From positions 1 through 36,944 of the forward strand of contig JAHDEE010000044.1 in NCBI GenBank assembly GCA_020629005.1: a DNA stretch of 36,944 nt. Direction: 5' to 3'. Below the pieces are notes generated by a model. It saw only the letters and a list, made by a program, of their open reading frames with translations, ran no database searches and was not told where the DNA came from. Numbering within the stretch: the first letter of the stretch is position 1; every line of letters begins with the position of its first letter. Below, one piece after another: positions 1,244 through 32,967 of this stretch. This DNA is from Chitinophagales bacterium (GTDB lineage Bacteria; Bacteroidota; Bacteroidia; Chitinophagales; UBA2359). A program made the translations under genes and the position numbers.

Positions 1244-2715
1244 GTTCAGCCATACCACTCACAAAGTCAACTGCTTTGGCACTGGCTCAGGACTCGGCTG
1301 AGCGCAAAAAGGACAAACGCATCGGATTGGTGCGATACATTGTGGCAGATTATCTGGCCGCTATGCTGGCCTGGGCCCTGTTCTTTTCCTTTAGAAAATT
1401 TAAGCTTCAGGATATCCCCTTTGAATGGTCCTACTTTCAGGATCCAAACTTTTTCATGGGTATAGCAATGGTGCCTGTTTTTTGGGTACTGCTGCATCTG
1501 TTTTTTGGCACCTACACCGATATCTATAGAAAGTCCAGACTGGCCGAGCTTGGCAAAACTTTTCTAACGACTTTAATTGGTGCCTCCATCCTGTTCTTCA
1601 CCTTAATACTTGACGATTGGGTGACGGGCTTGCATGGCTATTTCTACTCCTTCTTTGCCCTATTCAGCATACAATTTATTTGCGACACCATTTTCAGGAT
1701 GTATATGCTGACCAAGGCCAACAGGCAGATAGAAAGCGGTGAAGTTGGGTATAATACTTTGCTAATCGGTGGCAACAAAAAAGCGCTCAAGTTATACCGG
1801 GAGATTACCGAACGGGAGCGAGCTTTGGGCTATAAATTTGTGGGATTTATCAATGTCAAGGATAAGAAAAACAAACTGGAGTCCTACCTGCCGAGACTGG
1901 GCGACAAAGCATCCTTGAGAAAAGTGGTCAAGCAATATCAGGTAGAGGAAGTGATTGTGGCGATTGAGACTTCCGAGCATCACCTGATCAACGACATCAT
2001 CAATATGATTCCTGATCAAGAGATAGTGATCAAGATCATTCCCGATATGTATGACATCCTTTCCGGCTCCGTCAAAATGAATCATGTTTTGGGAGCAGTC
2101 TTAATTGAGATTAAGTCGCAATTGATGCCCAAATGGGAAGTGATCATGAAGCGGGCTTTCGATCTGTTGGTGAGTGGCGTTTGTCTGGTTGTCTTATCGC
2201 CCTTGTATTTGTTCCTGATGTTTCAGGTTCGTCGTTCGTCCAAAGGTCCTATTTTTTACAAGCAAGAACGCATGGGACTACATGGTAAACCCTTTCACAT
2301 CATTAAGTTTAGAAGCATGTATGTGAATGCGGAGGAAGCTGGCCCTGCCCTTTCGAGCGACCATGATCCGCGTATCACACCGATTGGCCGGATTCTCAGA
2401 AAGTATCGATTGGATGAGACCCCGCAGTTTTGGAATGTATTCAAGGGGGAAATGTCTTTGGTGGGGCCCAGACCCGAACGTCGCTTCTTCTACGACCAAA
2501 TAGTAGTAAAAGCTCCAGCATACCGGCATTTGCACAAGGTGAAGCCTGGCATCACTTCCTGGGGAATGATTAAGTTTGGTTATGCAGAAAACGTTGACCA
2601 AATGATAGAAAGAATGAAGTACGACATCTTATACGTAGAAAACATGTCGCTTACCATCGATCTAAAGATCATGATTTATACGGTACTCATTCTTGTAAAG
2701 GGCTCTGGAAAATAG
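1240..2715 (+). CDS. Polyprenyl-phosphate sugar-1-phosphate transferase (exopolysaccharide initiating enzyme)
   Basis: This 491-residue membrane protein fits the WcaJ/WbaP-like family, which transfers a sugar-1-phosphate from a nucleotide sugar to undecaprenyl phosphate and so starts a polysaccharide repeat unit at the inner membrane. Four hydrophobic segments occupy roughly residues 30-150. They are followed by a soluble CoA_binding_3-like region (LLIGGNKKALKLYREI, about 180-280) and a fifth hydrophobic segment (FDLLVSGVCLVVLSPLY, about 307-325). The catalytic bacterial sugar-transferase domain follows, with YKQERMG, FKIIKFRSM-like FHIIKFRSM, the LDETPQFWNV block and GEMSLVGPRPE near residues 400-412. 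The end (PGITSWGMIKFG) is also typical. It is translationally coupled to the lipoprotein by an ATGA overlap. The sugar specificity is unknown. Confidence 0.93.
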   Translation: MSSAIPLTKSTALALAQDSAERKKDKRIGLVRYIVADYLAAMLAWALFFSFRKFKLQDIPFEWSYFQDPNFFMGIAMVPVFWVLLHLFFGTYTDIYRKSRLAELGKTFLTTLIGASILFFTLILDDWVTGLHGYFYSFFALFSIQFICDTIFRMYMLTKANRQIESGEVGYNTLLIGGNKKALKLYREITERERALGYKFVGFINVKDKKNKLESYLPRLGDKASLRKVVKQYQVEEVIVAIETSEHHLINDIINMIPDQEIVIKIIPDMYDILSGSVKMNHVLGAVLIEIKSQLMPKWEVIMKRAFDLLVSGVCLVVLSPLYLFLMFQVRRSSKGPIFYKQERMGLHGKPFHIIKFRSMYVNAEEAGPALSSDHDPRITPIGRILRKYRLDETPQFWNVFKGEMSLVGPRPERRFFYDQIVVKAPAYRHLHKVKPGITSWGMIKFGYAENVDQMIERMKYDILYVENMSLTIDLKIMIYTVLILVKGSGK

Positions 2716-2856
2716 TACCTTTAACGCAATGCCCATGCTTGGCAAAATGGCCCTTGTTGTCTGTTTTGCACACATCCCACTCATTATAAACAGATTAGCT
2801 CTTTTTTGTCCGATTTGACCTTGAGTACAGGCCGGACTTGAAATAAATTGCTCCTG

Positions 2857-3309
2857 ATGAAAATCTGGTATATAGTGCTGGTATGCGCCGTTGTTACCTT
2901 CATCTCTTCCTGTAAAACACATACAAATGACATTGTTGGTGTCTGGGAACGAGTCGGAGATTATGGAGAAGGCAGCGTGGTAGAGGTGGAAAAAGTGGGT
3001 TCCTTCTTCCAGGCGAAACTGATTGACTTCCCGTTGACCGGACTCATGTCTGAAATGGGATTCCAGAAAGGCGATATGAAATGGCGCAATGTCAACTTCG
3101 TCCATGAGCGCTACTATCAAGGTGAAGACCTTCTCAAGATTGTCAATAAGCAAGGAGAGGTCGTTTCCACTCGCTACGACCCTGTGCATCTGGAATTACT
3201 ATCGGAAAACGTACTGGAAGTCCGGGCCTTTGCGGCTGGAGATGAATTCGTGGGCACTGTGCAGCGCTGGAATCGCATGATTCCAGAGGGAGAAAGACAC
3301 AATCGCTGA
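2857..3309 (+). CDS. Small hypothetical lipoprotein
   Basis: The protein has about 150 residues, starting at the ATG at 2857; a TTG three codons upstream (2848) is the only other in-frame option nearby. The N-terminus MKIWYIVLVCAVVTFISSC is a signal peptide with an ISSC lipobox. The mature part opens with DIVGVWERVGDYGEG and continues as a small beta-rich domain with an RYD motif, in the style of lipocalin-like or DUF2147-like 'xxGxW' proteins. The resemblance is weak and I do not assign a family. It stands alone, 140 nt after the polysaccharide operon, and runs tail-to-tail into the PLP enzyme gene at 3341 with only 31 nt between the two stops. Confidence 0.7.
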   Translation: MKIWYIVLVCAVVTFISSCKTHTNDIVGVWERVGDYGEGSVVEVEKVGSFFQAKLIDFPLTGLMSEMGFQKGDMKWRNVNFVHERYYQGEDLLKIVNKQGEVVSTRYDPVHLELLSENVLEVRAFAAGDEFVGTVQRWNRMIPEGERHNR

Positions 3310-3340
3310 TTTTCCCAAAGCCCACAAAAAACGCATGCCG

Positions 3341-4264
3341 CTAACAAGGGGCTAAGCCACCAGTGTGAATAGCAAGGATTCTCGATCCTGCTCTGAAGTA
3401 ACCTTTAGATAGCAGATCGAATAGTGCGAAAAACATTTTGCCGGTGTATACCGGCTCGGTTGGAATCCCAAAATCAGCTTCAAACTGCTGTATAAAATCC
3501 AGCAAGGCAGGCTTGTGCTTTGCATAACCGCCAAAATGGTAATCAAGCATGAGCTCCAGTTTCGTCGTTCCGCAATTGCTGCCATATTCTCCTAATAGGA
3601 GACTTATCTCATCCTTCAAAAAAGACCCACCTTTTAAGACGCTGACTGCAACAATATTTCCGCTTGGATTTGATGCCAATAAACCAGCCGTAGTTCCTCC
3701 ACTGCCGCAAGCAAGCATATAATAATCAAATCCGCCTTTCTGGGTGTTAATCTCTTGCATCATCTCCAGCACCCCCGGTATGGCCAGTGCATTACTGCCG
3801 CCTTCAGGAATCACGAAAGCATGAGGGAACTGTGCACTGATGTCGGCCAGAAATTCAGCATTATTTTTTTGTCGGTATCTACTTCGACTGAGATAGTGCA
3901 GCTGCATACCTTGGTCGATCACAAAACCTAATCGCTTGTTGAGCGGCAAATGCTGCTCACCGCGGATGAAACCAAGCGTTTCAAAACCAAATAGCTTTCC
4001 CGCGGCAGCCAGTGCATAAATGTGATTGGAATAAGCACCACCAAAGCTGAGCAACTGTCGATACCCGGCTTTGCTGGCAGCCAGCAAATTGTGTTTGAGC
4101 TTTCTCCATTTGTTTCCAGAAATCGCCGGATGAATCAAATCTTCGCGTTTCACCCACAGCTCTATTCCAGCAGCTGCCAATTGTGGATGTTGCAGGGACT
4201 GTATTGGCGTTTCCCTTCCAAATGCCAGGATCTTTTCTTGTTGTTGCAGCATATGCAGTGCCAT
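3341..4264 (-). CDS. PLP-dependent ACC deaminase / D-cysteine desulfhydrase family enzyme
   Basis: This 307-residue protein belongs to the fold-type II PLP family that holds 1-aminocyclopropane-1-carboxylate deaminases and D-cysteine desulfhydrases. Near the N-terminus are VKREDLIHP and SGNKWRKLKHNL, where Lys52 is the expected Schiff-base lysine. FGGAYSNHIYALAAAG is the substrate-carboxylate loop, and ACGSGGTTAGL is the phosphate-binding glycine loop. Bacteroidota members of this group are usually annotated 'ACC deaminase/D-cysteine desulfhydrase'; the sequence does not settle which reaction is used. The start ATG at 4264 lies 3 nt after the stop of the giant metalloprotease gene, so the two are almost certainly co-transcribed. 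A second ATG at 4252 is possible. Confidence 0.88.
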   Translation of the reverse strand: MALHMLQQQEKILAFGRETPIQSLQHPQLAAAGIELWVKREDLIHPAISGNKWRKLKHNLLAASKAGYRQLLSFGGAYSNHIYALAAAGKLFGFETLGFIRGEQHLPLNKRLGFVIDQGMQLHYLSRSRYRQKNNAEFLADISAQFPHAFVIPEGGSNALAIPGVLEMMQEINTQKGGFDYYMLACGSGGTTAGLLASNPSGNIVAVSVLKGGSFLKDEISLLLGEYGSNCGTTKLELMLDYHFGGYAKHKPALLDFIQQFEADFGIPTEPVYTGKMFFALFDLLSKGYFRAGSRILAIHTGGLAPC

Positions 4265-4267
4265 ACG

Positions 4268-7200
4268 CTATGGCTCCTTAAATTCGATAAGATAGTCCTC
4301 CACTTCTCCGCCGTAAAAGTTGCCACAGGCATCCGGCCACTCTCCTGTATCCAGTTGCATGACCACCCGCATCAATTTGAATCCAGGCTCCTGAGATTCC
4401 GAAAGACTAAAGCCGCCAAATACCTGCTCATTGCTTTGCGATTCGAAAACGAGCTCTGACGGCTCGAAGTCTTCGTTCGAATTATGATCAATCCAGACTC
4501 TCCATCTTTGTGTGTAGTTACTCAAAGCAAACCCCGGGCTCAAAGAAAGCGTAACCGAGGAACCCAGGATCAAGGGCTCAAATGCCTGCTCAAATAGGGC
4601 ATAACCTTCATTTCCACTTTCATGTACTTCTCCATTCACTTGCACAGAGGCGATCCACTCTGCAGTGCCTGATCCCGAAGCCGTGCAGCAAGGCATAACG
4701 CTAATCATGACCTCTTCCTCATAGTCGCACCCAAACTCATCTTGTACCAAAACCGTGTAGAGGGTACTTTCATCCGGAGTTCCAATTGTATGTGCTTCCA
4801 GCGGACTTGCAACTGCTGTCAGTGGAGTCCAAACATAGGAGGAACCACCGGAAGCCCACAATTTCACTGGTTCACCACGGCAAATCTCCCGATCCTTGCT
4901 TGCTGCAATCTCGCTATGATGAACCTTGACACGAACCTGGGCAAAATCCTCACAGCCTTTCGCATTATCTGCACGAAGTACATAGAGCTGATCAAATTTG
5001 GGACTAACCTCGATTGTGCTGCCTTCCTCATCAGCAGGCCACCAATAGTAATTCTCCGCACCCATTCCGGTCAAGGAAACGGTATCACCCCTGCAGATTT
5101 CAAGCTCCGCTTCTTCAACCTCCAGGAAATCACTTTGGCCAACCGAAACATAAACGCTGGCAGTATCACGGCAACCCAGTTCATTTAATACCGCTACTCG
5201 GTACAGGGTACTCTCTGCCGGTTCAGCTATTGGATTTGCTGAGGAAACAGACGAAAGACCTGTTTGCGGCCACCAATAATAGTAGGATCCTCCACTTACT
5301 TCCAACTCAGTTTGATCTCCCAGGCATATTTCGACATCACCGGAGGACTGAGCAAAATCATCAGCATGAGGAATCACTTCTACAATTCTGGTTTCGAGAC
5401 AGCCATCCGCACTGGTAACGGCAACTGCATAGACTTGTGCCTCCTCCACAATCACGGTCGTTGTTGCGCTTTCTGTGTCCGAAAGACCAACCGCCGGAGA
5501 CCAACTGTAGCTTACACCTCCCTCGGATTGCAGCTGAACTTCTTCTCCTTTACAGGCAAATACCTGCTCTTGTGCTACTTGTGCAAAACCTGAGGCTGCA
5601 AGCTCTACATAGACTTCCTCGACAAACTTACAGGCGGCACCGGCTTGAGTGATGGTGACCGTATACAATTGCTCTTGGTCTGTTGTGATCATAGGGTTTT
5701 GAACATCAGTGGCAGAAAGCCCATCAGCAGGATGCCAGCTGTGGGTCTCGCCCTCAGAGGCAGGAAGTTGAAATGCTTCTCCAGGACAAACCAGAATGGT
5801 TTGTGAATTGGCAATCTCCTGAGCTTCAATAACTGTCACCGTGATGGATTCCGAAGTCACACAACCATCGGGGCTTGTGAGTTGCGCAGTATACTCAGTC
5901 GTAACTTCAGGACTTATCAGTTGTACAGTGGAAGATGGATTTTCAAAGGCATCCGCCGGAGACCAGAAAAGCGTTCCTGGGCCTATGCTAGCCTGCAAAG
6001 AAGCAACATCACCAGCACAAATCGTCGGATCCGAACCCAGCTGAAGTACCGGTGCCGCATTTACCTCTACAGCCACTGTGATATTTTGTACGCAGCCATT
6101 CTCTTGTGTTAGTGTGGCAACATAAGTTGTGCTGGATGCCGGATTTGCCTCAGTGCTCGCCGCAGTGGGATCTGCCAATCCTGTTTCCGGCCACCACTGT
6201 ACAGATGCAGCACCTGTTGCAAAAATGACTGCCGGCTCACCCGGACAGACAGAGACTAAACCTGAATAGTCTATCTCTTCGATGCTCAGTACCTCCACAA
6301 AAACTGCATGCTGCTCAGAGCAGCCGTGCTCATTGCTTACCTCCACCTGATAAAGTTGCGATTCATTCGGAGCAACCACCAACTGGGCCTCCGATTGATT
6401 AAGAGGATCAGCATCTGCAGACCAGGAATAGTGGTCACCGCCAGTGGCTTGCAACAATACCGACTCACCTGGACATATAACTACATCCTCACTCACAGAA
6501 GTCTCTCCCAAATCATAGACGTAGACAATCACCGATCGCTCTGTCTGGCAACCATTTTCGTCCTGTACCACCACGGTGTATTCTGTTGTTTCTTCGGGAC
6601 TGGCATGCGGGCTGGCGATCAAAGGATTAGACAAACCAGCTTCAGGACTCCATACAAAGCTGCTGCCCTGACAACTCAACTGAGTTGATTCTCCTTTGCA
6701 GATTCCCTGGTTTTGGGTGATCTGCGGTTGAAAATCCAGGACTTCAACATGCACTTCTGCATAGCCTACACAGCCGTTTGCATCAGTACCATAAACGGAA
6801 TAGGTTTGACTGGAAGAGGGAGCCGCCGTAGTCACGGAGCCTGTAACGGCTGTAAGACCGGGAGCAGGATTCCATTGATAGCTTTCCGCTCCTGCTGCTG
6901 ATAGCTCTGCGCTCTCTCCCTGACAAATAATCAGATCAGGACTTACCACTAATGTCGGAGCATCAGCAACTTCTACGATCACTGAATTTTGACCAGTGCA
7001 ACCGAAACCATCATCGACTGTCACCGTATAGTTTGTGTTTTGATATACTGTCGCTACCGGGTTGGCAATATTCGCATTTGACAATCCTGTTGAAGGACTC
7101 CACTGATAATACAAGCCTCCGCTGGCTTGCAGCTGGACCGTAGAGCCAGCACAAGTTTCGTGCAAGGGAGTCACTGTAACAGGCAAACCATCGGAAACCG

Positions 7201-10200
7201 AGACAAGCACGCTTGCCTCAGAGACACATCCATACAAATCCGTCACTGTAACTGTATACACTTGATCGCTGGCGGGAGCAGCAACCGGATTATGCACATT
7301 TGCATTGGACAAGCCCTCTGCCGGAGACCAGGAATAGTACTGCCCGCCTCCAGCGGTTAATTGCACGGAGGTACCGGGGCAAATTTCAGTATCCTCGGAT
7401 ATGGTAGCCATAATGGATTGATCAGCATAAACCATCACATTGCCTTGATTAACGCAACCACTTAGATCGGAAACCGTAACGGTGTAGAGCATATCTTCCT
7501 GGACTGTTGCAACAGGATTAGCAATATTCGGATTTGATAGACCAGTTGGTGGAGACCAGGAGTAGAATTGCCCGCCACTGGCTTGCAAACTTACACTGGC
7601 ACCTGGACAAATATGCAAATCCTCGCTTACAGAAATATCAAGCTCGGCATCCAGGTAGACCCAAACGCTAGCCTGATTTACGCAGCCATTACCATCGCTT
7701 ACCGATACCGTATATAGCTGATCATTTGAGGGAATTGCGATTGGATTAGCGATATTCGGATCAGATAGACCTTGTGTTGGAGACCATTGATAATAACTGC
7801 CACCAGTAGCCTGAAGTGCCACGCTTGCGCCAGGACATATATGCTGCTCTGGACTAACTGAGACGCTTAGTTCGGAATCAAGGTATACCCATACGCTTTC
7901 TTCAGCTGTACAGCCATTGCTATCGGTGATCATCACCGAGTAAAGTTGATCAGTGGGAGGCGAGGCGACCGGATTTGCTATATTAGGATCGGAAAGCCCA
8001 ACTGTGGGTGACCATTGATAGTCTACCCCGCCATAGGCCGAAATGGTCGCGCTGCCACCTGCACAAATGTGCGCATCTGCACTTGCAGATGTACTGATTG
8101 CTTCAACGTTTACCTGCACCACATCTATCGCAGAACAACCATACTGATCAGTGACAGTCACTGTATATAGCTGATCCTGAAGTGGACTGGCAATAGGATT
8201 TTGAATATTCGAATTTGAAAGACTGCCCGAGGGACTCCACTGATAAGACACTCCCCCACTGGCACCTAGCTGGGCTGAAGCTCCTGGACAAATGTTTTGG
8301 TTGGCACTCACCTCAATCGGGATCGGGCCATTTACGTGCACCTGCACCTGCGCTTCACCTGTACAGGAATTCCCATCTGATACGGTGACTGTGTAAAGCT
8401 GATCGCTCATTGGCCCCGCGATTGGACTTGCAGAATAAGGATCACTCAGTCCGGTTTGCGGACTCCATTCGTACTGTGTTCCACCGGAGGCGTACAGATA
8501 GGCACTTTCCCCCGGGCAGATATATACGTGCTCAATTACATCCACTTCAAGGCTGCCGCCCACACTCACCATGATGTCATTTTGACTAGAACAACCAAAT
8601 GAATCGAAGACCGTCACCGTATACAGCTGATCGCTTTGCGGGCTTGCAATTGGGTTATAAACATAGGGATTAGACAAACCAGTAGTTGGACTCCACTCAT
8701 AAGTCTGTCCACCTCCTGCAACCAGGGCTACACTACCTCCGGGACAGATACTTACATCTTGACCAACAAAAGCGCTGGGAGCCGCCTGCTCCTCCACAGT
8801 AATCTGCGATTGACCTTGACAGCCCGCATTATCTGTCACTGTAAGGAAATAGGTACCAGGCTCCGTCACCGATATTGAAGAGCCTGACTGATTATTGGAC
8901 CACTGATAGCTGCTATAACCAGCAGCTCCCGAAAGGACCAGGCTCTCGCCGGAACAAAAGGTAAAGCTGCTATTCGAACTACTGATGTTTGGTTGAAAGG
9001 GGGTACATTCATTGATTTCGCAAGACCATGTTAGTTCGAAGCCCCCTGCCTGTCCTGTGCCATTTGAAAAATGTTCAACAGTGATGGCCCCTCCACTCGA
9101 ATTAATAATTCCTCCATTCGGAAGCACATTTCCAGTGTAGGTACCGATTAGAGTGGAAGCCGTACTGTTGCCATCGTATATTTTCAGATAGTCATCGGAC
9201 CAGTAATCGAAAGATTGGAACTGAAGACGAACAGAAGAAGCGCCAGCAGGTGCAATTACGGTACTCTTTTGACTGTTTGCAGGATAGGCTGTAGTTCCTC
9301 CCCCTTCATCAAAAAGCCTCCCTTCACAAGAGCTGTGCAAAGCAGTATAATCGATATCGTAAACGCAGGCATTTGCCGCAGAGACATTAATGTAGTTGCT
9401 CCGGATTCTGCTGTCATCTGCCCCACAGCCGGTAACTATCAAAGTTACCGTATAAGTGCCGGGCGTAGAATAGGTATGGATTGGATTGGACCATTGACTG
9501 GTGGTGCCATCACCAAAGTTCCAGGCATAGGATTCAGCCCCTGGTGTGAGATTTTGAAAATGAACCGGACTACCCACGAGGCAGTACTCGGTCGGATAAG
9601 CCGTAAAATCTGCTTGCGGAGCGGAACTGGCAAAGGCATTTCCCACACCAACTGCGTACCAGGCATTTGTGACAGCCACTTCTTCGGCAGAGCATTCACC
9701 ATACAACTGTTTTGCCGCCAGTATGCTATAGTACCGAGCATCCTGGTAGTCACTATAGGGACTCAAGTAAGCACTCAGATTTAGGAAGGCGATGTTCAGC
9801 GCCTTATTCTGGCCAATAGGAGTAATACTATAGCTATCTCCATGATCATTCGTGCCACTTCCACCCTGCGACAATAGGTAAAACCACTTGTTCTGTACGC
9901 CAGAATTACTGTGAACCCAGCCATAATCATTATCCGCATTTGCAAAAGGTTCACTGGTCCAGTAGTAGCCATCATAGGTATCCGGATGGTACAAGTCCTT
10001 AGGAGAAGACATAGAGCGAAGTGCAACGTTCTCAAGGCAGATCTCACTACCGAAATACCAGTCAGCATTTTCCGGCCTAGCAGATCGCTCCACAGCATTC
10101 CCGAAAATATCGCAGAAGGATTCATTTAGTGCGCCAGACTCAAACTCATACACCAGATCAGCCGTATGCTCCACCACTCCGTGTGTGAACTCATGGCCAA

Positions 10201-11323
10201 TCACGTCTATACTTGCGAAAGGCAAATACTGAACTCCATCTCCATCCCCAATGATTATTCTCCCGACAGGATCCCAAAAGGAATTACTGTAGTCTACATC
10301 ATAATGCAACAAATTATCAACCCTCGTATCCAGATTATCGAAGCTCTTCCAGTCAAACAAATCATCATACAACTCATAGGTCTGTTGCAAGGCCCAATGT
10401 GCATCCGTGGCAACTTCATCTTGATCGCTGTTGAAATTGCTCCAGTAATTGTCCGAATCGGTGAAATCAACGATACCTCCAACGGTAGTTGTTTGCTGCA
10501 AATTTCGGGTACGAATACCCCCGCCAGTCAGGGTCTCTCTAAGTCGATAACTGCCCTCATGCGAATCACAATTGATGGACCTTTGCCCGCTCCATTTGGT
10601 ATTAGCAGTTCCAACTACATCCTCAGAAGGCATCAAATTCTTGACGCTCAAGACCTCACCGCTTACAGCATCCACTAATACAGCTTGTTTTGCATGTGGC
10701 TCCAGAGAGTAAATCTCGAATCGGTAGACCAGGCGAAAATCACCTAATTCACCTCCATTATGCTTCATGGGAAAATAAATCAGCTCCCCCTTGGGATTTT
10801 CCAATTCCGACGGATGGTACAAATCAAGGTTTTTGTCGTTCGCTTCAAGCTCCCAGATATAAGTCTCCGCTCCGACTTCCATCAGCGCTATACTAAGAGC
10901 AGACTCTTCAGGCAAACTAGCCCGACTGCTGCCTGGAGCTTGTCGAACGAATCTGCCCGTGATGCTAGCACCCTCACCAAAATGTAAAACAATCACGCAA
11001 CCTTTTATCGGCTTTCCCAAATAGTACTGCTGAAATCGAAAGTGCTCGCTTCCCCAGGGATCAGCGTAGGATTGCATCCCGCGAAACTCAAAATCTGGAG
11101 TCAATTCCAGCATATCATGAACCTTGCTCGGAAAGTCTCTAGCAGTCTCAAGTACACCTTCTTCAATATGTAAGTGGGCAGGATTCCCCGTAAGATGATC
11201 CGTTCGCAAAACGCGCACACCAGCATTCGCCTGATTGGCTAGCAGGGAAACAGGGACAAGGTAAGTGCACACAAGTATTAACAATGCTTGCAAAAGCAAG
11301 ACAGACTTCTGGTAACAATGCAT
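4268..11323 (-). CDS. Giant secreted M4 (thermolysin-like) metalloprotease with PKD, CUB and 19 Ig-like repeats
   Basis: I prefer the ATG at 11323 over the TTG at 11362 because it starts directly before a signal peptide (YQKSVLLLQALLILVCTYLV); the protein is then about 2351 residues. Residue numbers here count from the TTG. An FTP/PepSY-type propeptide covers about 50-245 and the M4 catalytic domain about 250-575. The zinc motif is H390-E-F-T-H394 with third ligand E414 in GALNESFCDIFG, and the proton donor His484 is in HSNSG. Next come a PKD domain (about 584-660, WNFGDGTT), a CUB-like domain (about 667-781, DYLKIYDG), 19 Cys-bounded repeats of about 74 residues (about 800-2220), and a C-terminal GEVED domain (RWRVWIDHNSNEDFE, GEVEDYLIEF). 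No T9SS sorting-domain signature (YPNP...) follows, which is odd for a Bacteroidota protein of this design. Likely role: extracellular proteolysis, with the repeats as a stalk or adhesive. The PLP enzyme gene follows after 3 nt; a rhomboid gene lies 170 nt upstream on the same strand. Confidence 0.93.
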   Translation of the reverse strand: MHCYQKSVLLLQALLILVCTYLVPVSLLANQANAGVRVLRTDHLTGNPAHLHIEEGVLETARDFPSKVHDMLELTPDFEFRGMQSYADPWGSEHFRFQQYYLGKPIKGCVIVLHFGEGASITGRFVRQAPGSSRASLPEESALSIALMEVGAETYIWELEANDKNLDLYHPSELENPKGELIYFPMKHNGGELGDFRLVYRFEIYSLEPHAKQAVLVDAVSGEVLSVKNLMPSEDVVGTANTKWSGQRSINCDSHEGSYRLRETLTGGGIRTRNLQQTTTVGGIVDFTDSDNYWSNFNSDQDEVATDAHWALQQTYELYDDLFDWKSFDNLDTRVDNLLHYDVDYSNSFWDPVGRIIIGDGDGVQYLPFASIDVIGHEFTHGVVEHTADLVYEFESGALNESFCDIFGNAVERSARPENADWYFGSEICLENVALRSMSSPKDLYHPDTYDGYYWTSEPFANADNDYGWVHSNSGVQNKWFYLLSQGGSGTNDHGDSYSITPIGQNKALNIAFLNLSAYLSPYSDYQDARYYSILAAKQLYGECSAEEVAVTNAWYAVGVGNAFASSAPQADFTAYPTEYCLVGSPVHFQNLTPGAESYAWNFGDGTTSQWSNPIHTYSTPGTYTVTLIVTGCGADDSRIRSNYINVSAANACVYDIDYTALHSSCEGRLFDEGGGTTAYPANSQKSTVIAPAGASSVRLQFQSFDYWSDDYLKIYDGNSTASTLIGTYTGNVLPNGGIINSSGGAITVEHFSNGTGQAGGFELTWSCEINECTPFQPNISSSNSSFTFCSGESLVLSGAAGYSSYQWSNNQSGSSISVTEPGTYFLTVTDNAGCQGQSQITVEEQAAPSAFVGQDVSICPGGSVALVAGGGQTYEWSPTTGLSNPYVYNPIASPQSDQLYTVTVFDSFGCSSQNDIMVSVGGSLEVDVIEHVYICPGESAYLYASGGTQYEWSPQTGLSDPYSASPIAGPMSDQLYTVTVSDGNSCTGEAQVQVHVNGPIPIEVSANQNICPGASAQLGASGGVSYQWSPSGSLSNSNIQNPIASPLQDQLYTVTVTDQYGCSAIDVVQVNVEAISTSASADAHICAGGSATISAYGGVDYQWSPTVGLSDPNIANPVASPPTDQLYSVMITDSNGCTAEESVWVYLDSELSVSVSPEQHICPGASVALQATGGSYYQWSPTQGLSDPNIANPIAIPSNDQLYTVSVSDGNGCVNQASVWVYLDAELDISVSEDLHICPGASVSLQASGGQFYSWSPPTGLSNPNIANPVATVQEDMLYTVTVSDLSGCVNQGNVMVYADQSIMATISEDTEICPGTSVQLTAGGGQYYSWSPAEGLSNANVHNPVAAPASDQVYTVTVTDLYGCVSEASVLVSVSDGLPVTVTPLHETCAGSTVQLQASGGLYYQWSPSTGLSNANIANPVATVYQNTNYTVTVDDGFGCTGQNSVIVEVADAPTLVVSPDLIICQGESAELSAAGAESYQWNPAPGLTAVTGSVTTAAPSSSQTYSVYGTDANGCVGYAEVHVEVLDFQPQITQNQGICKGESTQLSCQGSSFVWSPEAGLSNPLIASPHASPEETTEYTVVVQDENGCQTERSVIVYVYDLGETSVSEDVVICPGESVLLQATGGDHYSWSADADPLNQSEAQLVVAPNESQLYQVEVSNEHGCSEQHAVFVEVLSIEEIDYSGLVSVCPGEPAVIFATGAASVQWWPETGLADPTAASTEANPASSTTYVATLTQENGCVQNITVAVEVNAAPVLQLGSDPTICAGDVASLQASIGPGTLFWSPADAFENPSSTVQLISPEVTTEYTAQLTSPDGCVTSESITVTVIEAQEIANSQTILVCPGEAFQLPASEGETHSWHPADGLSATDVQNPMITTDQEQLYTVTITQAGAACKFVEEVYVELAASGFAQVAQEQVFACKGEEVQLQSEGGVSYSWSPAVGLSDTESATTTVIVEEAQVYAVAVTSADGCLETRIVEVIPHADDFAQSSGDVEICLGDQTELEVSGGSYYYWWPQTGLSSVSSANPIAEPAESTLYRVAVLNELGCRDTASVYVSVGQSDFLEVEEAELEICRGDTVSLTGMGAENYYWWPADEEGSTIEVSPKFDQLYVLRADNAKGCEDFAQVRVKVHHSEIAASKDREICRGEPVKLWASGGSSYVWTPLTAVASPLEAHTIGTPDESTLYTVLVQDEFGCDYEEEVMISVMPCCTASGSGTAEWIASVQVNGEVHESGNEGYALFEQAFEPLILGSSVTLSLSPGFALSNYTQRWRVWIDHNSNEDFEPSELVFESQSNEQVFGGFSLSESQEPGFKLMRVVMQLDTGEWPDACGNFYGGEVEDYLIEFKEP
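4735..8965 (-). repeat. Intragenic array of 19 degenerate ~222-bp repeats encoding Ig-like modules
   Basis: Within the metalloprotease I count 19 units, each opening with a Cys in an ICPGxS-like motif and closing with a Cys in a TDxxGC-like motif. Between them are YxWSPxTGLSNP, IANPVASP and QLYTVTV. Each unit is about 74 residues (222 bp), and the two cysteines could form one disulfide per module. Units 2-9, nearest the catalytic end, are the most alike at both protein and DNA level (for example repeated gtatacagctgatc-like stretches on the plus strand between about 7250 and 8640). Units 10-19 are more diverged. This gradient suggests recent expansion at the proximal end. The array can recombine, so assembly length should be treated with caution. 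Confidence 0.9.
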
Positions 11324-11493: not shown

Positions 11494-12249
11494 CTAAAAC
11501 GGTCGGTTTCCCGTATTGCCCAAAGGAGGAATACTATACCAAAGGCGGAATAAAACTCCAGACAGCAACCCGAAAGCAAACCCGCCAATGTGTGCCCACC
11601 AGGCTACACCACCAGAAGGAGCACCACTCAAACTACCCATACCACTAATCAATTGCTGCCCAATCCAAAAACCAAGGAATAAGATGGCCGCTACTCTAAA
11701 GGAGCGCATGAAGATCAAAACCAGAATCTTTATTTGCGATTTAGGAAACATCACCAGATAGGCACCTAAAACCGCAGCTATCGCCCCGCTGGCCCCTACT
11801 GTCGGAATTGTACCCGGACACATGGCGGTAACCTGACCTTCGCATGAGGCAATTGCAGAATTCAGACAGGGATTACAACAGCCTGCGATCATCTCGCCGC
11901 CTGTGCCTAATACTATATGCGCCAAATGAGCAGCCAGACCCCCCAATATATAGAAAATAGCAAACGGCACACTTCCTATGGTCGCCTCAATGTTATCCCC
12001 AAAAACCCAAAGGAAAAGCATATTGCCAATCAAATGCATCCATCCCCCATGCATGAACATACTGGTGAACAATGTGATGTAATCTTCACCATTCGCAATC
12101 TCCGCAGGTATAGCTCCCCATTCACAAACCAGCGCGCCTGGCTGAGTAAACTGATAAAGAAAAAACACCACATTAATAGCAATAAATGCATAGGCAACTA
12201 ATGGTGGATGCCCACCCCTTACCTGATCATCACCGATTGGAAAAACCAT
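11494..12249 (-). CDS. Rhomboid-family intramembrane serine protease
   Basis: This 251-residue polytopic protein has the hallmarks of the rhomboid family, which cleaves transmembrane segments inside the inner membrane. FMHGGWMHLIGNMLFLWVFGDNIE (residues 65-88, quoted here only as a landmark) carries the HGG, H72 and N76 positions. GASG holds the nucleophile Ser154, and WAHIGGFAFG holds His220 of the dyad. Six transmembrane segments are apparent. Between the third segment and the Ser-bearing helix there is an extra loop of about 30 residues containing five cysteines (124, 125, 128, 136, 144) that most family members lack. The gene is upstream of, and on the same strand as, the giant metalloprotease. 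It is divergent from the M23 gene, with about 298 nt between them. Confidence 0.93.
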   Translation of the reverse strand: MVFPIGDDQVRGGHPPLVAYAFIAINVVFFLYQFTQPGALVCEWGAIPAEIANGEDYITLFTSMFMHGGWMHLIGNMLFLWVFGDNIEATIGSVPFAIFYILGGLAAHLAHIVLGTGGEMIAGCCNPCLNSAIASCEGQVTAMCPGTIPTVGASGAIAAVLGAYLVMFPKSQIKILVLIFMRSFRVAAILFLGFWIGQQLISGMGSLSGAPSGGVAWWAHIGGFAFGLLSGVLFRLWYSIPPLGNTGNRPF

Positions 12250-14773: not shown

Positions 14774-17257
14774 CTATTTGCTGATTACCAATCGCTCAGT
14801 AGCAACTGCAGAATCAAAAGCAAACTGTACCATGTAAACCCCCGCTGGAAGATCGCTAAGATCTAGCTCCTGGCTAAAGCTTCTCATGTCATTTTGACTT
14901 GTTTGGTGAACCAACTCACCCGCAACATCAAATACGCTCAAAGTGAAAGCAACAGAATGATCTAGCTCGATACCAACTTGTACAATTCCTTGTGAAGGAT
15001 TTGGATAGAACTCGAAAGTCTGAAGTCCTTCAACCTGAGTAACAGAAGTGCTGAATTCGATCACAGTGAAGTCCATTGAAGACTCACATCCAAACTCATC
15101 TGTCAAAGTAACCGTGTAGTTTCCTCCTTGCTCAAGATCAGCAACATCTACATTCAGAATCAATCCTGAACCCAGCTCTCCAGCATCTGAAGACCAAACC
15201 ACTTCGTGGTTTACAGGCTCAGAGAATGGATTATCAACACTGTCAATGAACCACTGTACTTGATCGCCTAGATCTTCTTGACCCATTTCAAACTCCAAAG
15301 AACAATCAGGAGTTGAAACTTCGATCTCCTCTGAAACACAACCGCTTTCATCAGATACTACTACGCTGTAGCTTGTACCAGGAGTTAGATCAGTAATGGT
15401 TTCAGAATCCTGATCAAGACCAGCCCAATCGAAAGTGTAGTCACCTGCTCCACCTGATGGAGAAACGGTCAATGTAGTAGGATACTCTTCAACAACGTTA
15501 ACATCAATGTTACATTCAACCAGGATATCTTCACAATGCTCCAGGCCATCAGTTCCGAATACACAAATAGTGTATGTTCCTGACTCTGCATAAACTGCTG
15601 TTGCAGTACTTCCTTCAGCTGTCTCGCCATTTCCGAAGTCCCAGGACCAGTCACAGTTAGTACCATCGGCCTGACCTGTCAAATCTACTGACAAACCATT
15701 TACCTCATATGCATAAGTGATTGAAGTAGCTGGACCACTAGCCAATATACCGTATACCATTGGAATAACCGCTCCAGAACTAACTCCAGTACCAACCCAG
15801 TTTCCAGCAGCATTAAGTGTAAGACTCTCACCAGGCGTATTTCTCTGAGTAGAACAAGCCATTCCTAGCTCACCTTCTGGAGTACTTGGCTCAACTGAGA
15901 TAAAGTACTTTCCGGTTGGTAGTTCAATTGGGCAGTCAAAGGTGGTAGTAAATGTACCGCCATCTGGTGTGTCAGCTTCAGGAATAAACGGACCAAATGT
16001 ATAAAACACTTCACCCACTCCTTCTTCAGTCATATTGTAAACGTTCAACTCAGTTTCACCCCAAACGCCACTTTCCGGACCGACTGCATCAAAGGTAATC
16101 CCTGCAAGTTGAGAGTCTTCGAAAGCTTCGATAGAAGATCCGTAAGCACCCGTACCCGCAAGCGTAAATACTGTAAAGCTGAAATCTAGCGTAGCATTTC
16201 CTTCTTCATCCGGTACAACGATATCAACAAAGTCAATAGCTCGTCCGTACTTACCGGTTGTTAGGCTGCTGGTAAACACCTTTAGGTTATCAAATCCGTT
16301 CAACTCCTCATCATCTTCAGCTGAAGAAATGAAGTAGTTGAAGATATAAGTACCAGTGTCAGCAGGCTCAAAAGTGTTAGGAATAGTAAAGGTCTGAGTT
16401 TCACCAGAAGCCAATTCCGAAGGCTCACCTGTAAACTCACCAACAGTCGTCAACTGATTCGCTTCGAAGTCATTGTACTGAATCGTCATCAACATAGTAA
16501 CTTCAGTTCTGTCTTCAGCTCCGTTGTTGGTTACATCAATGGTAAAATCACCGAAGTTTGCCCACTCTGAGATCGGGAAGTAAGCATAATCATTCGGTGT
16601 TTGGATTCTATCGATTCGCATATCGAAGGCAACTGGCGTAGTGATAGAGAAGTTGTCAATTGCACAACCACTTGCCCAGTTTCCGCTATCATCATGCCAG
16701 AATCGTACGTGAAATTCACTGCTGTCAGTGTAAGGATCAAGGCTAAGACCAATGTCTTGCCAGAAAGTTTGCGCCTCCACTTCGAACAAAGTCTCCCATG
16801 AATCACCACCATCGGTGCTAATTTCTACAATACCTCGTGAACCCCAAAGGCCAGTCATAAATACACTAAAATTCAAACGTGCACCCGAACCGGAAGCTGA
16901 AGTTAGGTCAATGGCCGGTGAGATCAGGTAATCGGCAGAACCATCACAGGTTTCACCACATCCGTCATCATTCACCACCATAAAACCATTGCCTTCAATA
17001 CCGAGGCTAGGAGGAATATCCCAGTAAGTACTGGAACCACTGATTTCGTCGGCAGCTTGCCAACCATTGGAGGCAGTCAGCGGCGGATCGACATCATTAT
17101 TTCCAGAGGATTGCTCTGTTATCCATCCATCAGGAAAGCCGTCATCAAAGTTTTCTTCGATGATCACATCCTGAGCAAAGACAGGAGAAAGAAAAAAAGA
17201 CATGAAGGCAACCAAAAATAGGCTGCTCATGCTTAATCGTAAAGATTTCATTTTCAT
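14774..17257 (-). CDS. T9SS-secreted protein with choice-of-anchor J-like, PKD and SprB-like repeat regions
   Basis: This 827-residue protein starts with a clear signal peptide (LRLSMSSLFLVAFMSFFLSP, cleavage after VFAQ). Residues about 30-205 look like a MAM/choice-of-anchor J jelly roll (NFDDGFPDGW, YLISPAIDL, STDGGDSW, IDNFSI). The centre (about 205-520) is beta-rich with an 'NxGAEDRTEV' CARDB-like part. A PKD domain sits at about 525-600 (WDFGNGETAEG), then a SprB-like repeat (SGGAGDYTFDWAG, VVVSDESGCVSEE). The C-terminus is a type A T9SS sorting domain (FEFYPNPSQGIVQVGIE, then DLPAGVYMVQF and a final RLVISK). The protein is expected to cross the outer membrane by T9SS and be anchored or released. 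It is divergent from the next T9SS cargo gene, with 160 nt between. No enzymatic domain is visible, so adhesion is only a guess. Confidence 0.88.
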   Translation of the reverse strand: MKMKSLRLSMSSLFLVAFMSFFLSPVFAQDVIIEENFDDGFPDGWITEQSSGNNDVDPPLTASNGWQAADEISGSSTYWDIPPSLGIEGNGFMVVNDDGCGETCDGSADYLISPAIDLTSASGSGARLNFSVFMTGLWGSRGIVEISTDGGDSWETLFEVEAQTFWQDIGLSLDPYTDSSEFHVRFWHDDSGNWASGCAIDNFSITTPVAFDMRIDRIQTPNDYAYFPISEWANFGDFTIDVTNNGAEDRTEVTMLMTIQYNDFEANQLTTVGEFTGEPSELASGETQTFTIPNTFEPADTGTYIFNYFISSAEDDEELNGFDNLKVFTSSLTTGKYGRAIDFVDIVVPDEEGNATLDFSFTVFTLAGTGAYGSSIEAFEDSQLAGITFDAVGPESGVWGETELNVYNMTEEGVGEVFYTFGPFIPEADTPDGGTFTTTFDCPIELPTGKYFISVEPSTPEGELGMACSTQRNTPGESLTLNAAGNWVGTGVSSGAVIPMVYGILASGPATSITYAYEVNGLSVDLTGQADGTNCDWSWDFGNGETAEGSTATAVYAESGTYTICVFGTDGLEHCEDILVECNIDVNVVEEYPTTLTVSPSGGAGDYTFDWAGLDQDSETITDLTPGTSYSVVVSDESGCVSEEIEVSTPDCSLEFEMGQEDLGDQVQWFIDSVDNPFSEPVNHEVVWSSDAGELGSGLILNVDVADLEQGGNYTVTLTDEFGCESSMDFTVIEFSTSVTQVEGLQTFEFYPNPSQGIVQVGIELDHSVAFTLSVFDVAGELVHQTSQNDMRSFSQELDLSDLPAGVYMVQFAFDSAVATERLVISK

Positions 17258-17417: not shown

Positions 17418-18263
17418 ATGACAAAGAAAATAACCTTGATGGCCCTCATTATTTGCGGGATGCTAATTTACGCCAACACCAAAACCGGACATAGCTTCAG
17501 CACCGTCCCTCCAACTGGACATGCAGGCGCCTTTGCGCTGGGAGAGCTGACCTGCGCAAAAAGTGGATGTCACAGCTCCAACGGAGCACAAAACGACGGC
17601 AGTGGCAGCTTGTCCATACAATTCCCAGCAGGAACCGAATATACACCAGGAACCTTATATGACATGGAACTTGTCATAGATGACCCTGGTTTTATGCAGT
17701 ACGGATTCCAATTAATTGCAGTTGCCGACAATGGGCAAAGCATCGGACAATTAGTCTCAACTAACAGCTTCACGACAATTACAACAGCTTCAGGGCGAGA
17801 TTACCTAAGTCACAGCAATATTCCCGATGCAATTGGAAGCAGCTATCCATTTAGCTGGCAGGCTCCTGCTAGCGACAGTGGAACCATTACATTTTTTGCC
17901 ACTGGTGTTTCTGCCGACGGCAATAATAGCCCCGCAGGAGACTGGGTATACTTTGGAGAATTGGCACTAACTCCCGCCTCTGATGCCATCGGAGATGCTC
18001 AGTTAATCAATTCTGCTAACCTTTTCCCTTCTCCGGCAAGCACTCATAGTACTCTGGAATTTACTTTGTTGAGCGAGCAGAATATTAGCATTCGTTTGCT
18101 GGATATTTCAGGTAGAACAGTGCAAAACTGGAATCCGGGACTGTTAAATGCAGGCCACCAATCGCTGAATCTTGATCTAAGTCAACAACTCACAGGCGGC
18201 CAATATATACTGCAACTACAAGCAGAAAACCAGGTCAAGGCACTGAAAATTATGGTTCAATAG
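17418..18263 (+). CDS. Choice-of-anchor V (reelin-like) T9SS-secreted protein
   Basis: The protein has 281 residues with an N-terminal signal (ITLMALIICGMLIYA). After it comes the pattern THE-TGHAGAFALGE-like 'PPTGHAGAF' and then C46-AKSG-C51-H52. The choice-of-anchor V family in Bacteroidota characteristically has a 'TGAPGE...C(S)GCH' start followed by a reelin-type beta domain; here that domain covers about residues 65-185 (YTPGTLYDMELVIDD, MQYGFQLIAV, GTITFFATGVSADGNN, GDWVYFGELAL). The last 80 residues are a T9SS sorting domain (NLFPSPASTHSTLEF, LTGGQYILQLQ). The CX4CH group could bind haem or a metal, but a standard CXXCH motif is absent. The protein is likely surface-exposed. Function is unknown. 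It is followed after 28 nt by lpxK, perhaps on the same transcript. Confidence 0.85.
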   Translation: MTKKITLMALIICGMLIYANTKTGHSFSTVPPTGHAGAFALGELTCAKSGCHSSNGAQNDGSGSLSIQFPAGTEYTPGTLYDMELVIDDPGFMQYGFQLIAVADNGQSIGQLVSTNSFTTITTASGRDYLSHSNIPDAIGSSYPFSWQAPASDSGTITFFATGVSADGNNSPAGDWVYFGELALTPASDAIGDAQLINSANLFPSPASTHSTLEFTLLSEQNISIRLLDISGRTVQNWNPGLLNAGHQSLNLDLSQQLTGGQYILQLQAENQVKALKIMVQ

Positions 18264-28883: not shown

Positions 28884-29223
28884 CTGTTGGCTGGAGGCAG
28901 TATTTTACACAAAAGACATCGGTCATGCGTTCCGAGTCATTGCTGGTGGGGATTGAATTAGTCTGATTGTTGGAAATTATGAATTTTTGAACTTGGAATG
29001 GCTTAATTTAGGGTAAAAAAGATCGTTTTGTATTTGAAATATTATTTCAATTGACAATCAGCGATTTAGATCGAAATTTTGTTTACATAATTCAGCTATA
29101 GAGGCAAGAAACGATTCAAAAACAGCTTGGAGGACCCACATTTTTGTATTTTTTTCGTGCACAGCGAATATGCAACTTTGTTCTGAAAGAGTGACTACCC
29201 CCAAACTAGAAACACCTATCTCC
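28884..29223. other. Divergent AT-rich intergenic region with candidate promoter and palindrome
   Basis: No gene is seen in these 340 nt. They separate two divergent genes and so hold both promoters. On the plus strand CAACTTTG at 29173-29180 differs from the -7 consensus only in its first base, 43 nt before the ATG at 29224. TTTG at 29143-29146 is upstream at a long spacing of 26 nt. A 17-nt perfect palindrome lies at 29034-29050. Confidence 0.4.
29034..29050. promoter_or_regulatory. 17-nt perfect palindrome, possible operator
   Basis: TTGAAATA-T-TATTTCAA is a perfect inverted repeat with a one-base centre, in the middle of a divergent promoter region. It could bind a dimeric regulator or simply reflect AT-rich composition. 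No regulator gene is adjacent. Confidence 0.3.
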
Positions 29224-30597: not shown

Positions 30598-30735
30598 TCC
30601 CTTCTTAGGACCGAGTGCGACAAATCCCGTTTTTTGGAAATCTTTGATTGGATTTGTTTTAACATATGTGCTATTTTTAAGCCCCTTTGAGATGGGCTTG
30701 CTGTGCCCAGGATTGACCAACCTATAACCATTGTT

Positions 30736-32967
30736 ATGAAAGCAGTAATAACGTTCCTCATTCTGTTTGTAATCACCAGTCTAAGCCTGCACAGTCAATG
30801 TGAATCAAGCTTCAATATATTGGAAACAAGTAGTGGAGCATACTTGTTCGAAAGTACTGCCGGCACGCCCAATACGCTTGCAGGCTGCTTCTGGAGTTTT
30901 GGCGATGGCAACACATACGACGGCTGTTTTGCACAATATTCCTACGCTCAGGAAGGTGTTTATGCTCCTTGTCTGACAATTACAACACTAGATGGCTGCA
31001 CAGCAACCAGCTGCGATACTCTGGCGGTCGGTGCTACAAACCCGATGCTTTGCGGTCCGGCAGGTATATACGTGGAGCCACTTAACAACTCTGACAGCTT
31101 TCAGTTTGGCGTGCAAGCAAATACACTCTTTACCTACTATTGGGATTTTGGAGATAATAGCTCATCTACCGAAGGGGCTCCCACACATACCTTTCAAGAG
31201 GGCACTCACCAGGTCTGTCTCACCTACACCTGCGACAATGGAGAGACAGGTACTGAATGTGTTGAAGTGACTGTTCCGGGAACTCAAGGCAATGATTGTA
31301 TTGCAGAATTCACTTACAGTGAAGAAATGACAGCGAGTGGCGAAAGTGTTGTCGTGTTACACGCTGCAGCTGATCCAGCAATATCAGCCCAGTACTATTG
31401 GATCTTGCCAAATGGTGATGTTGTTGTAAATCAAACGTACACCTTGGTTCTGGACCCAGGAACATACGATATCTGCCTCACCATAGATACAGGCGACTGT
31501 GAAGACACGTATTGTCAAGGAATAGTCGTCGGTGGAAACAATACACCAGACTGCAATGCTGGCTTTACAGCCGAGCAAACCGTGACAGGTGTAGTACTTA
31601 ATCACGTAAACCAGTTCGCGGGTATTTCTTACTGGGAGTGGAGTCTTGGAAACGGTCTGGCTTCCACCGAAGTTAGTCCTTCCCTAACATCCCCTGGAAG
31701 TTACACTGTATGCCTACTCACATTCTGCGATCAAAACACGGAAGATTATCAGTGCCAGGATATAGTCGTAGGAAATTCCAACAATGACTGCGAGGTTAAT
31801 ATCAGCTATACCAATAATCCCGGGAGCCTAAGCGATTACGTATTCGTGGCAGATGCTCAGGGAACGGGACCATTCACCTACTTGTGGACCAATGCAAATG
31901 GCAATGTACTCATGGGCGGACAAACCATAACCATTGCACTGGATTCAGGCATGAACCTTGTCTGCGTGGACGTAACGGATGCAAATGGCTGTGTTGCCTC
32001 TTCTTGTGAACAGTTAGAGATAGAAAATCCAAACTCAGCAGCAATCTGCGGGGTGATAACAACCGGTAGTGCCAACATTGATCCGCAATTGGATGCCACA
32101 GTGTATCTAATCACCTATGATGAACCAACAGGATTACTGAGTATGGTTTCTGAAATGCAAATCGATGCGAATCCTAATGCTGCAGGAATAACCTTTTGTT
32201 TCGAAGACCTTACGGTTGGCCAGCCCTACATGATTAAGGTCGCATTGAACGAGGACTCCTTTATGTATAGTGACTATCTACCGACTTATTATCCACATGC
32301 GGCTTTCTGGGCAGAGGGTCAGGAGATTATTGCAACTGGCGCCACAACGATCGAAATCGAGTTAGTCGCTGGTTCTAATCCTGGTGGACCTGGTTTTGTC
32401 GAAGGATATGTATATGAAGGTGCAGGAAAAACGGCAGAGGTAGGTGTCCCAAATGCATTGGTATTGCTGCTCGACGCCGAAGGGAATGCAGAACGATACA
32501 CAATAACTGATGAAGATGGCTACTATAGCTTTACTGAGGTAAGTTTAGGAACGCATCAATTGACGATAGATGCGCTCAATAAAGAATCAGAAAGGCTGGA
32601 ATTTAACCTGGAAGACTACGAAGGCCACAGCATTGTCATCAACTTTGAAGAATTTGAAGACATGGTTGAAGCTGAAACCGTTAACCCAACATCAGTCATT
32701 GAGGAGTTGCTAGAGCATGATATCATCGCTTATCCCAATCCTACAGATAATGACTTTACGGTTTGCTTTTTGGGCAATGGTTGCTCACAGGTAGCGATCA
32801 CTGCCAGTTCACAATACGGCAAGAGAGTCTACAGCAGAAAAGTAAATGTAACGAGAGGCGTAAACACATGGAGAATAAACTCCTCGGAATGGCCAGCTGG
32901 CACCTATACGCTCAGCATCATGTACAGCAATGGCGAAAGCTATAGCACCATGATTTTGAAGCTATAG
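30736..32967 (+). CDS. T9SS-secreted multi-PKD protein with carboxypeptidase-regulatory-like domain
   Basis: The ATG at 30736 starts a signal peptide (KAVITFLILFVITSLSLHSQ); a GTG 33 nt upstream would precede it with unlikely residues. The protein has about 743 residues. Four to five PKD-type domains are visible from about residue 25 to 440 (CFWSFGDGNTYDG, YYWDFGDNSSSTEG, YWILPNGDVVVNQ, YWEWSLGNGLASTE, YLWTNANGNVLMG). Each carries paired cysteines, including a recurring 'D/GCxAxxC' turn. Then comes a CarboxypepD_reg-like domain (GFVEGYVYEGAGKTAEVGVP ... TDEDGYYSFTEVSLG, about 555-640) and a T9SS sorting domain (IIAYPNPTDNDFTVCF, WPAGTYTLSIMYSNG). It is 138 nt after the dockerin-type gene and may share its regulation. 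Its role is likely structural or adhesive; no catalytic residues are seen. Confidence 0.86.
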   Translation: MKAVITFLILFVITSLSLHSQCESSFNILETSSGAYLFESTAGTPNTLAGCFWSFGDGNTYDGCFAQYSYAQEGVYAPCLTITTLDGCTATSCDTLAVGATNPMLCGPAGIYVEPLNNSDSFQFGVQANTLFTYYWDFGDNSSSTEGAPTHTFQEGTHQVCLTYTCDNGETGTECVEVTVPGTQGNDCIAEFTYSEEMTASGESVVVLHAAADPAISAQYYWILPNGDVVVNQTYTLVLDPGTYDICLTIDTGDCEDTYCQGIVVGGNNTPDCNAGFTAEQTVTGVVLNHVNQFAGISYWEWSLGNGLASTEVSPSLTSPGSYTVCLLTFCDQNTEDYQCQDIVVGNSNNDCEVNISYTNNPGSLSDYVFVADAQGTGPFTYLWTNANGNVLMGGQTITIALDSGMNLVCVDVTDANGCVASSCEQLEIENPNSAAICGVITTGSANIDPQLDATVYLITYDEPTGLLSMVSEMQIDANPNAAGITFCFEDLTVGQPYMIKVALNEDSFMYSDYLPTYYPHAAFWAEGQEIIATGATTIEIELVAGSNPGGPGFVEGYVYEGAGKTAEVGVPNALVLLLDAEGNAERYTITDEDGYYSFTEVSLGTHQLTIDALNKESERLEFNLEDYEGHSIVINFEEFEDMVEAETVNPTSVIEELLEHDIIAYPNPTDNDFTVCFLGNGCSQVAITASSQYGKRVYSRKVNVTRGVNTWRINSSEWPAGTYTLSIMYSNGESYSTMILKL

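Follow-up and report, generated by a model that had tools for sequence, protein, structure and literature searches.

The locus considered here raises the question of how a very large protease of the secreted type would leave the cell when it lacks the C-terminal sorting tail that nearly all of its complete relatives bear. The window, the whole stretch of 36,944 nucleotides that was analysed, encodes an M4 (thermolysin-type) zymogen in which the propeptide and the M4 catalytic domain are followed by a PKD domain, a CUB domain, 19 Ig_7 units and a GEVED domain (Table 1). Its reading frame opens with an ATG at position 11323, which aligns with the start methionine of the sister-species protein, and closes with a TAG codon. 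The Pfam families found on it are FTP, M4, M4_C, PKD, CUB, Ig_7 (eight stretches) and GEVED: M4 (98.8 bits) and M4_C (145.6 bits) both pass their cut-offs, the FTP propeptide scores 29.6 bits against a cut-off of 21, and GEVED (PF20009) scores 48.8 bits against 24.4. By eye, no lipobox is seen in the signal peptide. The zinc ligands and motif residues H377, E378, H381 and E401 do not vary among the seven sequences aligned, so the catalytic machinery of the enzyme seems intact, as far as can be judged from sequence.

Table 1. Features of the focal gene and its surroundings, in window coordinates.
Feature	Position	Strand	Basis
CDS, M4 metalloprotease, 2351 aa, 19 Ig units and terminal GEVED	4268..11323	-	ORF and Pfam
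Sec-type signal peptide, N-terminal, residues about 1-34	11222..11323	-	by eye
Propeptide: FTP (79-121) and weak PepSY (137-227, below cut-off)	10613..11221	-	Pfam
M4 catalytic domain, residues 238-560	9644..10612	-	Pfam
HEFTH zinc motif, residues 377-381; third ligand E401	10181..10195	-	7-sequence alignment
PKD domain, about 565-650	9374..9631	-	Pfam
CUB domain region, about 651-777	8993..9373	-	Pfam
19 tandem Ig_7 units, residues 778-2204, Cys pair in each	4712..8992	-	Pfam, C-x-G motif spacing, AlphaFold (units 5-7)
Ig unit 6, missing in the sister-species protein	7646..7873	-	unit comparison and tree
C-terminal GEVED domain, residues 2205-2351	4271..4711	-	Pfam; AlphaFold pLDDT 93.4
PALP (pyridoxal-phosphate enzyme) gene, downstream; starts 3 bases past the protease stop	3341..4264	-	ORF and Pfam; order kept in G001
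Rhomboid-family gene, upstream, same strand	11494..12249	-	Pfam; order kept in G001
T9SS type A tail protein, contrast to focal	14774..17257	-	profile scans
T9SS type A tail protein, contrast to focal	17418..18263	+	Pfam
T9SS type A tail protein, contrast to focal	30703..32967	+	profile scans

The original prediction was that this protein ends in GEVED with no T9SS tail, and Pfam, NCBIfam and home-built models all bear this out by giving no match to one. No tail appeared among the Pfam families at E ≤ 1, whether the whole protein or its last 148 residues alone were scanned, and none was found by NCBIfam in the last 310 residues alone at the same threshold. The type A families (PF18962/TIGR04183) and a home-built type A model gave no match. 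The type B sorting signal (the NRWGE-type CTD), whose detection would have told against the prediction, was sought in the C-terminus with Pfam and NCBIfam, which returned nothing, and with a home-built model, which gave E 0.89; the ChiA-like type C CTD had no match in NCBIfam, a library that may hold no type C model. These results could also be read as a tail that is present and too diverged for the models, as type C CTDs exist (PMC9936825) and two window proteins have tails under the Pfam cut-off. This reading is, however, close to refuted by length, and we give it hardly any weight: the GEVED match (residues 2274-2346) stops 5 residues short of the C-terminus, and in the GEVED model the final strand predicted reaches residue 145 of 147, so that a further domain of some 70 residues could not fit.

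The missing tail is not due to a genome without a T9SS, since the focal genome (G000) contains SprA (profile match of 2249.8 bits) together with T9SS-tailed proteins. The second M4 protein of this genome has a type A tail (E 1.5e-18), and the five tailed proteins expected in the window are there, with 5 of its 20 other proteins matching PF18962 at E ≤ 0.01 (three over the Pfam cut-off and two under it). A protein at window positions 29170-30597 combines Big_9 and dockerin with a sub-cut-off T9SS tail match in Pfam; its dockerin is internal, unlike the terminal dockerin-like module described below. Short second ORFs in the focal genome (G000:C425:15889-17130, 475 aa) and in the sister species (G001:C304:5220-6464, 472 aa) cover only SprA profile positions about 767-1191; the main SprA gene is found on different contigs from these short SprA-like ORFs and, in G001, is split in two.

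An assembly or gene-model artefact, or a gene in decay, would also give a protein with an unusual end, and both genomes of the genus are drafts, in 456 and about 580 contigs. The sister species (G001), the sole other genome of the focal genus found, argues against both. Its orthologue, 61% identical over the N-terminal 764 residues, likewise terminates in GEVED and lies in the same gene order between rhomboid and PALP genes, so that the ending and the flanking genes are the same in two assemblies that have diverged in sequence. The absence of a tail is thus real and old. GEVED is 60% identical between the two species although their synonymous sites are saturated (so that no dN/dS ratio is given), which indicates that the GEVED ending has been long maintained, and over the last 22 codons the protein is 64% identical against 18% at third positions. 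The two-species comparison points to strong constraint over the entire frame, and an artefact or decay is accordingly highly improbable. Truncation or frameshift was rejected as well, since the PALP gene begins 3 bases after the stop, leaving no room for a tail in a shifted frame, and the sister species ends alike.

Several features of the locus were noted alongside. A ribosome-binding-like AAGGAG motif for PALP lies inside the last protease codons (window 4264-4279). Across window positions 2662-11323, identity to G001 is 61% for the protease (764 residues), 56% for PALP and 51% for the gene at 2662-3189; nearby sugar-transferase, rhomboid and M23 genes are 75-86% identical and thus far less diverged than these three. 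The rhomboid was considered as a dedicated processing partner and rejected, as the protease and PALP were not found beside it in the eight other matching genomes, within the flanks read. The promoter motif TAnnTTTG was likewise discarded; it occurs 30 times in the window against 23.4 expected, and no copy stands directly upstream of the ATG.

Tail-less forms are exceptional among the relatives of this protein. The homologue set comprised the best 80 of 309 confirmed homologues (sister species included) and the window protein, giving 81 proteins, of which 73 have a stop codon and are complete and 8 run off their contig. The N-terminal 764 residues, the part shared with the T9SS-cargo M4-PKD-CUB proteases of Bacteroidota, are 36-44% identical to 79 loci besides the sister species. 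A tail model matches 68 of the 73 complete homologues, the focal pair being counted (type A in 64 and type B in 4), although the agreement is partly built in: 58 type A and 8 type B homologues of this very set served as seeds for the models, and type A came before type B in the testing. The five without a match are the focal pair, L136, L184 and L197. L136, a homologue from another genus of the focal family (G002), terminates too close to a contig end for its ending to be judged; the distance from the stop to the end of the locus is 261 bases in L136 and 274 in L184. L197 has a type B tail match in another reading frame. Only two of the 73, both of the focal genus, are GEVED-terminal, and giant M4 homologues in two other genera of the family, G004 (2231 aa) and G007 (2392 aa), have type A tails.

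Taken at face value, the lack of a tail would favour retention of the enzyme. A review describes the CTD as both necessary and sufficient for T9SS export (PMC10202324), and none is detectable in the focal protein with Pfam, NCBIfam or our own models; without it, the enzyme would stay periplasmic or be released only by vesicles or lysis. Against this stand the tails borne by nearly all complete relatives examined and the architecture itself, for a periplasmic enzyme would be oddly built with 19 Ig units, each holding a Cys pair, and a putative binding domain, all of them strongly constrained. Retention is therefore a serious but unlikely explanation.

The reading that we favour, with moderate confidence, is a lineage-specific loss of the sorting tail that left a "nonCTD" protease bearing a binding domain at its far end. 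In this scheme, the thermolysin-family zymogen would descend from ordinary T9SS cargo, and Sec would carry it across the inner membrane. The common ancestor of the two known species, the only two in which the GEVED-terminal M4 form was found, would have lost or replaced the sorting tail, or swapped the whole C-terminal half, leaving a protein that now stops at GEVED. The Ig chain would act as a long spacer and GEVED as a distal binding domain, and the enzyme may still reach the outside through tail-free T9SS-dependent export or by another route. Such export has a possible precedent in the nonCTD peptidases of F. columnare, which have no recognisable CTD and are reported to be secreted by wild-type cells and poorly or not at all by T9SS-mutant cells, so that their export appears T9SS-dependent, although the authors of the report allow indirect explanations (PMC9936825). 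Those peptidases are smaller and of other families, none of the ten in the table of that report being M4 or of the focal size, and every F. columnare enzyme that it assigns to M4 or calls thermolysin-like carries a type A CTD (PMC9936825).

The role assigned to GEVED draws on its fold. The best structural alignment of the GEVED model is to Endo HS alpha (PDB 9x1i) and spans 147 of 147 residues (Z 15.5, rmsd 2.8, 17% identity); at the sequence level, too, a GEVED profile hits this enzyme (E 1e-4, strongest over residues 735-876). At that stretch of the GH85 glycosidase lies domain IV, for which glycan recognition has been proposed and in which, according to the same article, the sugar-binding residues known from a similar fold are not conserved; the next domain, V, resembles a gingipain CTD (PMC12961652). 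Since IV and V are separate, GEVED and the sorting tail are different domains that are often adjacent, and the focal protein ends with the first of them. T9SS CTD structures are absent from the 50 matches listed for the GEVED model, which is not evidence of absence. GEVED (PF20009) was defined in CshA-type fibrillar adhesins, where it is described as invariably paired with a ligand-binding domain, placed downstream of NR2 and followed by stalk domains (PMC10952558). From these likenesses we infer that the GEVED of the focal protein is a distal binding domain, perhaps for glycans, and that it is unlikely to be an export signal.

The original prediction had nevertheless allowed for a non-canonical signal within GEVED, and some observations could be read as a terminal GEVED that itself directs export or anchoring. 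An unrelated M43 protease in another genus of the family (L110) also ends in GEVED without a T9SS tail, the last 22 codons of the focal gene are conserved in protein far more than at third positions, and the NCBIfam Leptospira thermolysin model carries its GEVED-matching part at positions 634-771 of 776. This proposal is disfavoured, however, because GEVED usually precedes a T9SS tail, is separate from the CTD-like domain in Endo HS alpha (PMC12961652) and is rarely terminal in the surveys given below. Six genomes of the family hold 40 GEVED ORFs, 35 of them complete; 24 of the 35 have a type A tail and 11 match neither type A nor type B. Three of these 11 are GEVED-terminal, namely the focal pair and L110 (of the eight others, one contains a run of N that prevents a judgement), and the GEVED of L110 is only 30% identical to the focal one. 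L110 (2018-5527) is an M43 pappalysin with four fn3 stretches that stops at GEVED as the focal protein does.

Pattern surveys gave a similar picture. Across ten genomes of the family, an in-frame stop just past the exact motif was seen only in the focal gene and L110 among the matches listed. The survey of the order (298 genomes) gave such a stop in 0 of the 150 matches listed, none of which came from the focal family, and that of the phylum (392 genomes, with a span of 6 or 7 codons after the motif) in 1 of 17, a protein with no Pfam GEVED match. These surveys used one exact motif, listed part of the rows and gave on the plus strand the shortest match per motif, so that a true terminal case can be hidden, as the G001 gene was in the ten-genome listing; those of the order and phylum covered stops other than TAG, the stop type of the focal gene. 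In the surveys made, then, GEVED-terminal proteins occur rarely. No article joining GEVED with type IX secretion was found among open-licence articles. A signal residing in GEVED is, on balance, improbable, and that a C-terminal GEVED stands in for the T9SS tail, in export or surface anchoring, and is used in this way independently by M4 and M43 proteases of the family seems just as improbable.

Other endings occur in the family. Giant S8 subtilases with GEVED and fn3 from three genera (L101 1968-8471, L108 894-6647 and L115 1678-6135) are PKD-terminal, with no T9SS tail found, and three more family loci (L079, L085 and L119) show a similar PKD-type ending by eye or by motif only. A different, unnamed module closes other GEVED proteins of the focal family. 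In alignment A6, which comprises 30 sequences, it spans about 128 residues and contains a "VRHRNHLAV" segment and two dockerin-like loops, with "IGVxxVRY" as its usual last stretch. No Pfam or NCBIfam family matched this module above cut-off in the proteins scanned, where dockerin models gave weak matches below cut-off. The focal genome has 25 copies (loci L302-L326), all of them lying 0-7 residues from the stop and lacking a type A tail; further sites are L116 4492-4884, L118 3541-3924 and L123 5826-6215. Ten of the 25 copies were scanned with fetched flanks, and five have upstream M36, M14, PETase-like, YHYH or endonuclease-type domains, differences which indicate that the module is common to unrelated enzymes. 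It is present in 20 of 20 genomes of the family, in 4 of 40 other genomes of the order and, with at most 14 candidates per genome scored, in 44 of 296 phylum genomes (focal included). At 29 loci outside the family, it lies at most 16 residues from the stop in 26 of 30 ORF rows, and none has a type A tail. The module is a candidate for a further C-terminal signal of sorting or docking.

The Ig chain was counted by anchoring on the C-x-G motif and its spacing. Each of the 19 units is 69-78 residues long and holds a Cys pair, usually 51 residues apart (range 45-52), that is probably disulfide-bonded. Ig_7 (PF19081) scores 122.9 bits on the protein, and its eight stretches pass individually. AlphaFold models units 5-7 with a pLDDT of 94.9 and a pTM of 0.63, the latter leaving the angles between domains uncertain. 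Mean mutual identity is 50% among units 2-9 against 30% among units 10-19, and when unit order was shuffled 20,000 times a block of eight equally alike arose 3 times, in agreement with the claim that the repeats grow more alike toward the catalytic side. The further claim of ongoing length variation holds in part: repeat number is not fixed among relatives, with 19 units here and 18 in the sister species (two species compared), whereas the evidence that variation is ongoing is weak. In a unit tree, all 18 sister-species units pair with their positional focal partner (support 0.76-1.00, except 0.15 for unit 16), and unit 6 alone is unpaired and joins the tree outside the pair formed by unit 5 (support 0.90). 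Units 7 and 16 find their best protein match in a non-positional sister unit by raw identity, but not in DNA. DNA identity between any two focal units is at most 64%. A recent repeat expansion was rejected on the basis of this orthologous tree and of TRF, which reported no tandem DNA repeat. Units 2-9 are also better conserved between the species (61-75% identity, against 37-60%), so slower evolution is enough to account for the gradient without recent duplication and is most simply what the likeness of units 2-9 reflects.

Known proteins share parts of this architecture. The NCBIfam Leptospira thermolysin model NF047971, which we take to correspond to LIC13322, likewise joins M4 to a C-terminal stretch that matches the focal GEVED and ends 5 positions from the model end, but it spans 776 positions and has no Ig chain, and the focal protein reaches 253 of 1350 bits on it, far under the cut-off. 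Leptospira is not known to have a T9SS. LIC13322 is a described Leptospira thermolysin (PMC5447677). Within Bacteroidota, the secreted M4 protease of Mesonia algae EK4-1 likewise has FTP, M4, M4_C and GEVED but differs in its FN3, in the absence of an Ig_7 chain from its listed domains and in a Secre_tail (T9SS) after GEVED (PMC10178186). Among solved structures, Ig units 5-7 come closest to Ig segments of the grappling hook protein GhpA of Aureispira (PDB 9fls and others; Foldseek E 1e-12, 23% identity); by sequence there is no profile match at E ≤ 0.01, and the tandem-Ig likeness is no sign of shared function.

T9SS cargo is usually listed on the strength of its C-terminal tail. A tail-less protease that has been kept under strong constraint while its kin are almost all tailed therefore offers a clean test of whether the tail is needed or another exit serves. 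The three GEVED-terminal proteins and the eight further tail-less complete GEVED ORFs in six genomes suggest that secretome prediction based on the tail would miss large enzymes of the secreted type in this family.
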